Assembly (NCBI GenBank): GCA_930980855.1
Contig: CAKNIZ010000001.1
Coordinates: 151,198-215,197 of the forward strand
Direction of reading: 5' to 3'
DNA: 64,000 bases
Source: an uncultured Clostridium sp.
GTDB lineage: Bacteria > Bacillota > Clostridia > TANB77 > CAG-508
The notes below the pieces were generated by a model. The model was not told where the DNA came from, did not search any database, and saw only the letters and a list, made by a program, of their open reading frames with translations. Below are positions 21,051 through 62,756 of the stretch, in pieces (the stretch's first letter is position 1; each line of letters starts with the position of its first letter). Both the position numbers and the translations under genes were made by a program.

Positions 21051-21193
21051 AAATAACCTCCTACAAAACTTTTGTTTGTGTATGGAGATATTATACATAC
21101 ATTTGTTTGGATTGTCAAGAGTTTTTTTATTTTTTTGATTAGGGACGGTCTTTAATCGTTACTATTCATAGCTTTTATTTATTTTTTAATTTT

Positions 21194-21290
21194 TATATAT
21201 GTTCCCACGCATTTCAAGTGGGTGTAGACAACGTAGGAGCGTAGTGCAACGTGCAAGCGAACCGCGAAGTGAAATGTGAAAGAATATATA
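21194..21290. repeat. Structured intergenic element with long imperfect terminal inverted repeat
   Basis: TATATGTTCCCACGCATTTCA ... TGAAATGTGAAAGAATATATA; flanked by inverted GGGACGGTC motifs. Confidence 0.55.
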
Positions 21291-21426
21291 TTAAAGTTTA
21301 AGTAGATTATTTAAGCTGCGAATTGTAACCTTTAATCATAAAAAAATAAGTATGCTCAATTGCATACCTATTTTTTTATAATAAATATTTGTAAATTTTC
21401 ATTTAAGGACCGTCCCTAATTGAAAA

Positions 21427-38740: not shown

Positions 38741-38762
38741 TTTTTACTCCTTTTTTATTTTA

Positions 38763-38877
38763 ATTGTATATTTAAATTTTGCAGTTCCGTGCAAGCGTTC
38801 AAACAAGCTGGAAGGCTTCCAGCGAAGTGCGTTTGGAGCGCAGCTCCCGCAAGGAACAAGAAATTTAAATATACAAT
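38763..38877. repeat. TTGTATATT-ended structured intergenic element, subtype II (copy D)
   Basis: ATTGTATATTTAAATTT ... AAATTTAAATATACAAT perfect 17 bp ends; internal GTTCC/GGAAC, GCTGGAAG/CTTCCAGC, GGAGC/GCTCC. Confidence 0.85.
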
Positions 38878-38881
38878 TCTA

Positions 38882-40156
38882 TTATATAATAAAATTTAAT
38901 ATATCTTCTTCTATATTTAATAATCTATTATATTTTGCTACTCTATCTGTTCTGCATGGAGCTCCTGTTTTTATTTGCATCGCATTTACTCCAACGGCTA
39001 AATCTGCTATAAAAGTATCTTCCGTTTCTCCTGAGCGATGAGAAATTATTGTTTTATAATTATTTTTCTTCGCTAACCTGATTGTTTCTAAAGTTTCTGT
39101 TAGTGTTCCTATCTGATTTGGTTTTATCAAAATTGCATTTGCAACTTCTTCTTTAACTCCCTTTATTAGTCTTTCAGGATTAGTAACAAAAAGGTCATCT
39201 CCTACTAATTGTACTTTATTTCCTATTTTCTTCGTTAGTTCTTTCCATACTTTCCAATCTTCTTCTGCTAGTCCATCTTCAACAGAATAAATAGGATATT
39301 TGTTTACCAAATCAACTATATAATCTATCATTTCTGCTTTTGTTTTATATTCATCTGTTTTCCAGAAATAATATCCTTCTTTATTAATCTTCTTTGCTTC
39401 TAAATGCATTTCTGTACTAGCTACATCTAACGCTAATTCAAAATCCTTTTTTTCTTTAAATCCAGCTTTATTGATTGCTTCTAATAATAGTTCTATGGCT
39501 TCTTCATCATTTTCTAAATTAGGAGCAAATCCACCTTCATCTCCAACAGAAGTTACTAAATTTTTCTTCTTTAGTATTTCTTTCAGTACCTTATATACCT
39601 CTACTCCCATTTGCATTATTTCTCTATAATTCTTTCCACCAACTGGTACTATCATAAATTCTTGTATATTTAGATTGTTATTCGCATGTTTTCCACCATT
39701 TAATACATTCATCATTGGCATAGGCATTACTTTTCCATTAATTCCGCCTATATATTTATATAAAGGAATATTTAAACTATTAGCTGCTGCTCTAGCAACT
39801 GCTAATGATACTCCCAATATACTATTTGCGCCCAATTTAGATTTATTAACTGTTCCATCAAGTTTTATCATTTTTTCATCTATTTCTAATTGATTAAACA
39901 CATTACAACCTATTAAAGCTTTAGAAATCTTTTTGTTTACATTTTCAATAGCTTTATACACACTTAGCCCATTATATGACTGCATGTCTCCATCTCTTAG
40001 CTCAACAGCCTCAAAACTTCCTGTTGAAGCTCCAGATGGCACCATTGCCATTCCTTCTATTCCACTCTCCAATCTAACAGTTACTTGAACTGTTGGATTT
40101 CCTCTTGAGTCTAGCACCTGAATTGCATTTAAATCATCAATAATTTCTTTTTTCAT
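38882..40156 (-). CDS. eno: Enolase
   Basis: [63 protein letters not shown]. Confidence 0.98.
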
Positions 40157-41027: not shown

Positions 41028-41109
41028 AATTCTCCTTTATTTTTTATATAGTTAAAATTCTAAAGCATTTTATACGTTACAATTTACAGCCTATTATTAA
41101 ATTCATATA

Positions 41110-41196
41110 ATTGTATATTCAAAATTTTGCAGTTTCGCGCAGCTTGGAGGACTTTATGTCCGACAGCAAGAAACCAAAAATTTTTGAATATACAAT
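41110..41196. repeat. TTGTATATT-ended structured intergenic element, subtype I (copy C)
   Basis: ATTGTATATTCAAAATTTTGCAGTTTCGCGCAGCTTGGAGGACTTTATGTCCGACAGCAAGAAACCAAAAATTTTTGAATATACAAT. Confidence 0.85.
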
Positions 41197-41288
41197 TCTA
41201 AAGTATTTTATACCACTTGAATTGTAACTTATTAATTGCCCTATTGCATTTGCTATATTTTTGTGCTATATTATTTAAGTATTAACAT

Positions 41289-44871: not shown

Positions 44872-45774
44872 CTATATTCCACTTAAGTCAAACTTTGGAA
44901 CATACTCTTCTTCATGTTTTCCCAAGTCTTGCATATATCCGTTCTCTATACCTAATATATATAAGTAATTTTCTACTTTTTTATACTCTTTTATATTAAT
45001 TTTTCTATTTATCTTTTCCATTTCTTTTGCCTTATATGCCGGAAAATATTGTGCCATTACACTTACATAAATACCTTCTGGCATATTTTCTTTTATCCAT
45101 TTTAGTATTCTTTTAGTATTTTGGACATAATTAGGAAGTATTAAGTGTCTAATGATTACTCCTTTTTTTATTATTCCATTTTCATCAAACTTGGGATTTC
45201 CGACTTGCCTATACATTTCCTTTATTGCCTCTGTAGCAATTTTAAAATAATTTGGAGCAGATGAGTATTTTATTGCTATTTCATCAGAATAATATTTCAA
45301 ATCTGGCAAATATACATCTATATAACCTTCTAGCATTTTTAGTGCTTCTACATTTTCATATCCATTTGAATTATATATTATTGGAATATTTAAACCTTTT
45401 CTTTTTGCTATTTCTATTGCTTGTATAATCTGAGGAATATACATTGTTGGAGTTACCAAATTAATATTATTTACTTTTCTATTTTGTTGTTCTATAAAAA
45501 TTTCTGCAAGTCTTTGAACTGTAATTTCCTTTCCTTTACCGCTACTGCTTATTTCATGGTTTTGGCAAAATACACATCTTAAATTACAATTACTAAAAAA
45601 TATAGTTCCAGATGATTTTGTATTTTTGCTAATCCCACTAATACAAGGTTCCTCAAAATCATGGCATGACACTAATGCTAACTTCACTTTATCTCCCGCA
45701 TTGCAAAAACCTTTTTCCCCATTTAATCTATTTACTTCACATTTTCTTGGACAAATTTCACATTTTTCTAACAT
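44872..45774 (-). CDS. Radical SAM protein, PflA-activase-like
   Basis: CEICPRKCEVNRLNGEKGFC and SNCNLRCVFCQNHEIS (CX3CX2C). Confidence 0.88.
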   Translation of the reverse strand: MLEKCEICPRKCEVNRLNGEKGFCNAGDKVKLALVSCHDFEEPCISGISKNTKSSGTIFFSNCNLRCVFCQNHEISSSGKGKEITVQRLAEIFIEQQNRKVNNINLVTPTMYIPQIIQAIEIAKRKGLNIPIIYNSNGYENVEALKMLEGYIDVYLPDLKYYSDEIAIKYSSAPNYFKIATEAIKEMYRQVGNPKFDENGIIKKGVIIRHLILPNYVQNTKRILKWIKENMPEGIYVSVMAQYFPAYKAKEMEKINRKINIKEYKKVENYLYILGIENGYMQDLGKHEEEYVPKFDLSGI

Positions 45775-45845
45775 AATAAAAATATTATAGCACATTTTTA
45801 TAATTTATGATATAATATTTTGTGTGAATTTTTTGCAACTATTTT

Positions 45846-46005
45846 AAGTATTTTTTATTGTATATTTGAATTCTTGTTCCTTGCGGTCGCTGCTAAAATT
45901 CTTCGAATTTTACAGCTCCAAACGCACTTCGCTTAAAATCCTTTTAAGCTCGTTTGAACGCTCACGCGGAACCGCGAATTTTCAAATATACAATAAAAAA
46001 TACTT
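45846..46005. repeat. TTGTATATT-ended structured intergenic element, subtype II (copy E, opposite orientation to D)
   Basis: Perfect 25 bp terminal IR AAGTATTTTTTATTGTATATTTGAA/TTCAAATATACAATAAAAAATACTT; interior reverse complement matches copy D. Confidence 0.85.
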
Positions 46006-46055
46006 TATATAGTATGCAAATATAACAAATACATAGCATTATAAAGGAGGAAATT

Positions 46056-46811
46056 ATGCTAAACGAACCTACATTAGATAACGGAATTTTTGAAGATATT
46101 TACAGGACCAGTTTTTCTCAAACTGGAATTCATGATGTACTTACTAATAAGTCTATATTGTCTATATTAGAAAATGTGGCAGGAGCTCATAGTGCTTATG
46201 TTCACTATACTTTCGAGGATTTAGCTAAGGAAAACTTAACTTGGGTACTTTTAAACTGGAAACTTAAAATTATAAAAAGAATTAAAGCTGACAAGAATAT
46301 AAAGGTTCAAACTTGGGGAAATTTCTCAAGTAAAATTTTTGTAATTAGAGATTTTAAAATATTTGATGAAGATGGAACTTTATGTGCTATTGCAACTTCT
46401 AAGTGGTGTTTAGTTGATACAATAAGGGGTAAGATTGCAAAAATGCCTGATAACATAAGTGAAATTTATCATGGATTTTACTATGAGTCAGTTTTTGGAA
46501 TTAATGATGTTCCTAAACTTTCTGAACCAAATTCTACCCCTATAAATGTAGATACTTATAAAATTCGTAGATTTGATTTAGATTTAAATAAACACGTTCA
46601 CAATTTGAATTATTTGAATATTGCTTATGAATTGCTACCAGATGAGGTATATGATGGCGATGAATTAAATAATGTTGAAATCTTATATAAAAGAGAACTA
46701 AAATATGGAGATACTGTAAAGTCTTATCTTTACAAAGAAGATAATTCTTATATTATTGTAATGAAAAGTGAAGATGATTCTATATTGCATGCTATTATCA
46801 AATTGTTTTAG
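46056..46811 (+). CDS. Acyl-ACP thioesterase
   Basis: Double hotdog fold family; RRFDLDLNKHVHNLNYLNIAYELLPDE. Confidence 0.85.
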   Translation: MLNEPTLDNGIFEDIYRTSFSQTGIHDVLTNKSILSILENVAGAHSAYVHYTFEDLAKENLTWVLLNWKLKIIKRIKADKNIKVQTWGNFSSKIFVIRDFKIFDEDGTLCAIATSKWCLVDTIRGKIAKMPDNISEIYHGFYYESVFGINDVPKLSEPNSTPINVDTYKIRRFDLDLNKHVHNLNYLNIAYELLPDEVYDGDELNNVEILYKRELKYGDTVKSYLYKEDNSYIIVMKSEDDSILHAIIKLF

Positions 46812-55700: not shown

Positions 55701-56600
55701 CTATTCTTCTGCTTTAAATTTTTTCACTATGCTCATATCATTAATCCAATCTTCTTTAACTTTTACCCAAAGTTTCAAATTTACTTTTGTATCTAGCATT
55801 TTTTCTAAATCTTCACGAGCATATGTACCTATCTTTTTAAGCATGTTTCCATTCTTCCCTATTATTATGCCCTTATGTGATTCTCTTAAACAGAAAATTG
55901 TTGCTTCTACATCGTAAATTTTTTCCATCTCTTTTGTTTTTCTTGTTTTCATTTTTGTAACTTCTACTAAAATGCCATGAGGAACTTCATCTTGCAATAG
56001 TTTTAAGGCTTTTTCCCTAATTGTTTCTTCTGCAATTTGTCTTAGAGTTTGATTTGTATATTCCTCTACACTATAATATGCTGGACCTTCTTTTAAGTTA
56101 CTTTCTATTTCATCAATAATTTCTTCTATATTTTTATCTTTTTTTACTGACACTGGTATTATTGCTACAAAGTCGTATAAATTTTTATACTTATCAATTA
56201 AATCTGCTATCTTTTTAGCATCTACTAAATCTATTTTGTTAATTATTAAAATAGTTTTCTTTTTACTTTCTTTTATTTTTTCCAATATTTTTTCATCTAT
56301 ACTTTTTTCTGTAGCTTCTATAACATAAAGTACAACATCTACATCTGGAATTGAACTTATCGCATTTTCATTCATCATATTTCCCAATTTTGATTTTGAT
56401 TTATGAAGACCAGGTGTATCCATTATTACTATTTGTGAATTGGGTCTATTTATTATTCCTCTAATTATGGTTCTTGTTGTTTGTGGTTTATTTGCTATAG
56501 CTGATATCTTTTCTCCTACTAATCTATTTATAATACTTGATTTTCCAACATTTGTTTTACCAACTACTGTTACAAAACCAGATTTAAAACAATCCATCAT
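55701..56600 (-). CDS. era: GTPase Era
   Basis: VGKTNVGKSSIINRLVGEKISAIANKPQTTRTIIRGI; KH domain KGIIIGKNGNMLKKIG. Confidence 0.97.
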   Translation of the reverse strand: MMDCFKSGFVTVVGKTNVGKSSIINRLVGEKISAIANKPQTTRTIIRGIINRPNSQIVIMDTPGLHKSKSKLGNMMNENAISSIPDVDVVLYVIEATEKSIDEKILEKIKESKKKTILIINKIDLVDAKKIADLIDKYKNLYDFVAIIPVSVKKDKNIEEIIDEIESNLKEGPAYYSVEEYTNQTLRQIAEETIREKALKLLQDEVPHGILVEVTKMKTRKTKEMEKIYDVEATIFCLRESHKGIIIGKNGNMLKKIGTYAREDLEKMLDTKVNLKLWVKVKEDWINDMSIVKKFKAEE

Positions 56601-56624
56601 TATATCCTTTCTAAATTATATTAT

Positions 56625-56711
56625 ATTGTATATTCAAGTTCTTGCAGTTTCTCGCAGCTTGGAGGACTTTACGTCCGACAGCAAGAAACAAAAGAACTTT
56701 GAATATACAAT
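56625..56711. repeat. TTGTATATT-ended structured intergenic element, subtype I (copy A)
   Basis: ATTGTATATTCAAGTTCTTGCAGTTTCTCGCAGCTTGGAGGACTTTACGTCCGACAGCAAGAAACAAAAGAACTTTGAATATACAAT. Confidence 0.9.
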
Positions 56712-56739
56712 TTTCAGCTTATTATAAAATTACTATAAA

Positions 56740-56824
56740 TGTATATTCAAGTTCTTGCAGTTTCGCGCAGCTTGGAGGACTTTATGTCCGACAGCAAGAA
56801 ACAAAAGAACTTTGAATATACAAT
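56740..56824. repeat. TTGTATATT-ended structured intergenic element, subtype I (copy B, tandem with A)
   Basis: Near-identical to copy A, same orientation, 28 bp spacer. Confidence 0.9.
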
Positions 56825-56868
56825 TTAAAATTATTTATAACTGCTATAAATTGTATCAACTCACATTA

Positions 56869-62675: not shown

Positions 62676-62756
62676 ATATCTCTCCTCCTGTGTAATTATA
62701 TGATAAGTTTTTATTTATATGATTTTTTGTTTTGGGACGGACAATAATCAAAAAAA

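Follow-up and report, generated by a model that had tools for sequence, protein, structure and literature searches.

A palindromic, mobile-type repeat of gut-type Clostridia whose complementarity is probably kept in part by template switching

How does a hairpin keep both halves of its stems complementary when its sequence changes from copy to copy? This question is raised by a 160-base hairpin with a GC-rich multi-hairpin core (copy E, 45846-46005) in a stretch of 64,000 nucleotides, here called the window, from an uncultured Clostridium sp. The draft genome to which the window belongs (G000, gut-type Clostridia) measures 1.55 Mb. A first-pass annotation, made from the letters alone, had taken the exchanged but self-complementary tips of copy E as strong evidence for structural conservation and had considered a role as insulator or terminator.

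Copy E, its site and its relatives

The 25 bp perfect ends that had been noticed are exact inverted repeats (plus strand, 45846..45870 and 45981..46005; self-match and fold), and imperfect pairing goes on beyond them (33 nt, 94%, 45838-46013). Within the arms, on the minus strand, the inner stem P2 (covarying helix 2; 45876..45880, GTTCC on the plus strand) pairs with its partner at 45968..45972 (GGAAC on the plus strand). Stem P4, which is nearly invariant in this species group, is formed by 45919..45924 (CAAACG on the plus strand) and 45951..45956 (CGTTTG on the plus strand). Hairpin tip 2 reads GCTGTAAAATTC-GAA-GAATTTTAGCAGC on the minus strand (45889..45916); among the other copies it varies between long and short forms or has been replaced. 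Tip 1 reads GCTTAAAA-GGA-TTTTAAGC on the minus strand (45931..45949). The fold is exceptionally stable compared with shuffled sequences (z = -10.0 as DNA and -9.4 as RNA), none out of 200 shuffles being as stable. As had been proposed, the reverse complement of copy E aligns with copy D, with which it shares the core GCGTTCAAACGAGC..GCGAAGTGCGTTTGGAGC..CCGCAAGGAAC; its tips are unlike those of copy D in sequence and still pair with themselves. Copy D itself is of the long type with a short tip 2 (38755..38885, plus strand; 111.7 bits with the covariance model R1). The window also holds copy A, a short type within GTTACAATTTACAGC..GAATTGTAAC ends (41076..41228, plus strand), and copies B and C, a tandem of the short type (56620..56838, plus strand). 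Around this tandem pair (56600-56849) the alignment blocks of the sister genome G026 overlap, which suggests one copy there and not two.

Copy E indeed lies between divergent genes, a radical-SAM protein gene to its left (44872-45795, minus strand) and an acyl-ACP thioesterase gene (46056..46811, plus strand; PF01643, 4e-20; PF20791, 1e-14). When compared with the sister genomes G026 and G029, the flanking alignment blocks stop at 45821 and restart at 46039. Since only 6 bp of the sister genomes correspond to the 217 bp present here (45822..46038), copy E is, from these alignments, most simply regarded as an insertion in its own lineage. Sites without copy E could be read at three loci (L151, L152 and L153). 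They carry no palindrome of this kind, so that insertion of the core into a pre-existing palindrome was rejected for E. On the 3' side of the radical-SAM gene, what looked like a site without the element is not a clean empty site.

DNA searches and model R1 identified at least 92 related copies in G000 when the long and the short type are counted jointly. Among relatives the distribution is patchy, with 64 R1 matches in G026, 38 in G023, 28 in G021 and a single one in G029, the thioesterase of which is 90% identical. A second model, built from distant copies and searched across 117 genomes of the order, detected the element in 24 of them, representing 7 genera that all belong to one family (f1). 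All genomes are metagenome drafts, and comparisons between them are based on the stretches around the copies. A phage origin was rejected, as the core pattern has no match in viral contigs.

Covariation of arms and tips

The core region, which is non-coding and about 90-145 bp long, is cloverleaf-like, directional and conserved, and the flanking arms are free in sequence. Its invariant elements follow one another in the order GCG-N-GCG, stem with tip 1, GGAGC, tip 2 and GCGAC-N-CAAG. Already in the raw sequence it can be seen that the arms are unrelated between genomes and perfectly complementary inside each copy.

In an alignment of 30 copies, 96.7% of the cells pair and 17 of the 51 pairs have changed on both sides. 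The doubly changed cells number 94, compared with 26.3 (sd 5.4) in shuffled and 4-15 in slid controls. Double changes occur in every arm-helix pair among 28 matches, mostly distant copies, and 62 copies from other genera contain 517 doubly changed cells versus 163 in shuffles, although both of these alignments were fitted to the model and their percentages lean towards it. Tip 1 occurs in 27 variants among 61 copies, with 431 Watson-Crick cells, two G-T, no A-C and one other. In the orthologous pair L231/L229 it has been replaced on both sides, the remainder of the element being nearly identical. For the family of copy E, the claim of structural conservation thus stood up to computation and is backed more strongly than had been stated: the covariation is real and goes well beyond that of shuffles (94 against 26 and 517 against 163), tip exchange, which is seen even within an orthologous pair, keeps the two sides complementary, and no homolog with generally unpaired tips was encountered among those examined. 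Ectopic gene conversion between copies may contribute to the exchange of tips.

In-place inversion and the vehicles of the core

Sixteen copy pairs of G000 and G026 were matched by their flanks (most 93-100% identical). One candidate for an inverted pair, L235/L223, was excluded because it represents independent insertions, which leaves 15. The core is inverted relative to the flanks in five of these and, in another genus, in two of 11 pairs of G085 and G137 (one ambiguous pair is left out of the inverted count), with the reservation that in draft metagenome genomes some inversions could reflect assembly choice or population polymorphism. Misassembly is unlikely as the source of the G000/G026 inversions, because the inner arms are short (about 17-25 bp), and possible for those of G137, because the frames there exceed 100 bp in places. 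In four of the five G000/G026 cases the swap took place inside the inner arms and the spacers are in place, whereas in L018/L210 the inversion reaches further out and the spacers are swapped, too. The breakpoints differ from locus to locus, which disfavours a site-specific inversion. In L448/L463 (G085/G137) an outer segment is located on the other side while the core is not flipped, and a few copies have TTTGTTCC inserted after GTTCC, an insert that matches the opposite arm when read as its reverse complement.

Template switching between the arms of an inverted repeat homogenises the arms and inverts the spacer (PMC8604942). It can yield multiple compensatory changes as well as loop inversions (PMC8794818), and in rRNA data the combination of loop inversions with compensatory changes is extremely rare (PMC8794818). 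Both arm homogenisation and spacer inversion are found in the element, and judging from this outcome the pattern fits well with that of a template-switch product. We consider it probable that copy E belongs to a MITE/REPIN-like palindromic mobile family, the complementarity of which is kept, at least in part, by template switching of the DNA polymerase at the hairpin. When one arm changes, the change would be copied to the other arm, and the spacer could be inverted in the process. The core would be conserved by selection, and a hairpin-DNA-binding protein probably needs it for spread. In G000, the short type travels within GTTACAATTCACAGC-ended elements with 8 bp target duplications, and in other genera the element is enclosed by frames that are likewise found on either side of a RAYT transposase gene. 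Template switching by itself does not account for a core that is conserved in several genera; for this, selection or recent amplification must be assumed as well. It should be borne in mind that the patterns expected from selection on structure overlap with those expected from template switching. More tentatively, the repeats could form a class of mobile palindromes spanning the whole family, in which the conserved cloverleaf core is a single-stranded DNA signal for fork stalling or transposase recognition that persists via self-templated repair, a possibility to which we attach low confidence. Template switching would then rewrite the arms continually, and each of the concentric palindromic frames could lengthen, shorten or flip without the others.

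At their two borders the short copies have GTTACAATTCACAGC and its complement, and such ends are also clear in several long copies. The ends of the short siblings measure 15 bp, and 14 of 28 show 8 bp target duplications, versus 3.4% by chance. The outer ends of copy E are at best strongly degenerate relative to the GTTACAATTCACAGC ends, and no clear target duplication was detected in its flanks. At 21158..21329 these outer ends enclose a third type of core, and the target duplication there, CTTTAATC, is an exact one of 8 bp; the region (21141-21345) adjoins a GGGACGGTC..GACCGTCCC hairpin. Related core types are present in G011, within the leader of the thioesterase gene (L157), and in G023, 3' of the radical-SAM gene (L153). 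Locus L129 (1501-1558) harbours a 58 bp GTTAC-ended element without core, which is probably a deletion derivative. Just outside the GTTAC ends of L043, L017 and L022 there are inverted, not direct, repeats (e.g. AAATAATC / GATTATTT), which gives the impression that one of the flanks was overwritten with a copy of the other. No autonomous partner with GTTAC ends was found around the IS256- or Y1-type transposases in the genus, and the IS256-type transposase was discarded as a partner since no GTTAC-type ends were found at it.

A different situation is met in G137 and G085, where concentric frames of the GGGGTCGGTCC type surround the elements and likewise flank the RAYT gene. In G137, GGGGTCGG-like or GGTGCCGG-like frames are present at 18 of the 18 listed loci. 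At L445-L477 (G085 and G137), the concentric palindromic frames are built of GGGGTCGGTCC units, and some frames exceed 100 bp per arm. Orthologs do not have equal numbers of them, and they can be flipped where the core is not, or the reverse. Because GTTACAATTCACAGC ends are used in G000 and RAYT-flanking GGGGTCGGTCC frames in G137/G085, the core appears to ride in different vehicles.

The shared frames in G137 and G085 also speak for a purely selected DNA hairpin, in which the folded single strand is required by a transposase (an HUH enzyme such as RAYT, for instance). Unpaired variants would then fail to spread, and inversion would mean re-insertion. In line with this, RAYT-type genes are present in G000 and relatives, and REPIN hairpins likewise show compensatory changes (PMC3116915). 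The single RAYT-like tyrosine transposase gene of G000 (L289, G000:C1:248089-248418) is flanked by GGGACGGTCC.. / ..GGTCCGTCCC, and the GGGACGGTCC repeats are not shared with copy E. The L289-type motif was also seen around a few copies (L010, L106 and L183) and near window position 62735. However, the GGGACGG motif, which is present in some copies (L010, L106 and L183), is absent from the flanks of copy E, so that E lacks a GGGACGG frame. Moreover, a Y1 search gave no match in G021 and G112 although both are rich in copies, and the breakpoints vary by locus, unlike what a fixed cleavage site would produce. Selection on the folded strand as the sole cause is thus a reading that we regard as unlikely.

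RNA and regulatory readings, and known systems

Covariation is the standard proof of functional RNA. A structured non-coding or cis-regulatory RNA family, in which folding of the transcript forces arms and tips to covary, would agree with the conserved core and the very strong covariation, with the CGC-GNRA-GCG-like hairpin of most long copies, and with the more frequent antisense orientation of tandem-setting copies relative to genes (24 vs 11). Yet selection on RNA from one strand would leave G-U in excess of A-C. All four Watson-Crick pairs occur in the arms, G-U pairs amount to about 1% there, and neither strand is favoured; fast-changing stems contain almost no G-U. Isolated stem mismatches are about equally often G-T and A-C (7 vs 8 in the inner arms and 11 vs 15 in the outer arms); G-T counts from model-fitted alignments lean towards G-U and were kept out of the strand test. 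Owing to the rarity of G-U in the arms and the lack of strand bias, the covariation signal points to DNA rather than RNA. The sole hint against this is one core T-G pair that is conserved on one strand in 27 of 30 copies. Frequent inversion would place the wrong strand in the transcript, and the copies have no consistent gene association. An Rfam search returned no family above the gathering score for the element, and a known RNA family was dismissed as the matches are sub-threshold hairpin look-alikes. Altogether, we consider an RNA family improbable. The first-pass interpretation therefore holds for conservation of the structure, but covariation as a sign of selection alone does not fit the rare G-U, the missing strand bias and the in-place inversion, which point to a mutational mechanism (template switching), at least partly. 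Since the strong covariation of the element is at least partly mutational in origin, such repeats can mislead RNA discovery.

A putative -10 box of the thioesterase gene, TGATATAAT (45811..45816 within 45808-45816, plus strand; from sequence comparison), is located to the left of E and is conserved ahead of the thioesterase gene in near orthologs without E. Because of the position of this box, copy E would be transcribed within the thioesterase 5' leader, where it is predicted to form a large hairpin in the mRNA. The proposed function as an intrinsic terminator or as a transcriptional insulator between the divergent genes, for which a stable hairpin between two genes and the many other copies directly downstream of a stop codon could be adduced, is very improbable: a search of 45650-46150 yielded no intrinsic terminator and no T-tract, E sits between two gene starts with both putative promoters to its left and is missing there in the related genomes examined, the copies are spread over tandem, convergent and divergent settings (35, 9 and 5 long copies in G000), and no insulator role follows from the divergent setting of E because this setting is the minority.

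The element resembles MITEs as a short, non-coding, multi-copy sequence with terminal inverted repeats, which are clear in the short copies, and its short siblings also share the 15 bp ends and the 8 bp target duplications. Unlike MITEs, the long copies have covarying, free-sequence arms, a conserved directional multi-hairpin core and in-place inversion, copy E lacks a clear target duplication, and no autonomous partner of the IS256 or Y1 type was found. With REPIN/REP sequences, which are mobilised by RAYTs, the element has in common that it is a palindromic, multi-copy, extragenic hairpin with compensatory changes (PMC3116915, PMC3733652, PMC2817692). RAYT genes are present, too, and in G137/G085 they are flanked by the frames that surround the elements. 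However, REPINs combine conserved ends with a variable spacer, whereas the present element has variable arms around a conserved core, and copy E has no REP ends. The bcr1 repeats of the Bacillus cereus group are dispersed, about 155 bp long and conserved in secondary structure; by description they are similar in size and conserved structure, and we know of no inversion or free-sequence arms in bcr1. Fungal mitochondrial double-hairpin elements are mobile hairpins, the structure of which is said to be kept by compensatory change. They can be likened to the element by description, but are organellar and of other sequence, and a literature search on double-hairpin elements brought up nothing relevant within the collection of papers that was searched. 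Finally, the element shares with template-switch hairpin evolution the arm homogenisation, several paired changes and spacer inversion; unlike in the rRNA cases, inversion affects roughly one in three of the orthologous copies that were compared, with a unit of about 100 bp. The element is thus of an already known kind, the palindromic mobile repeats (MITE/REPIN-like), and is notable for a conserved core that lies between complementary arms of free sequence and for its frequent in-place inversion. With a conserved core and free ends, this small element is the reverse of ordinary transposons. Its copies are replicate natural experiments on bacterial template switching, complete with orthologous before-and-after pairs, and make the element a natural test bed for palindrome evolution.
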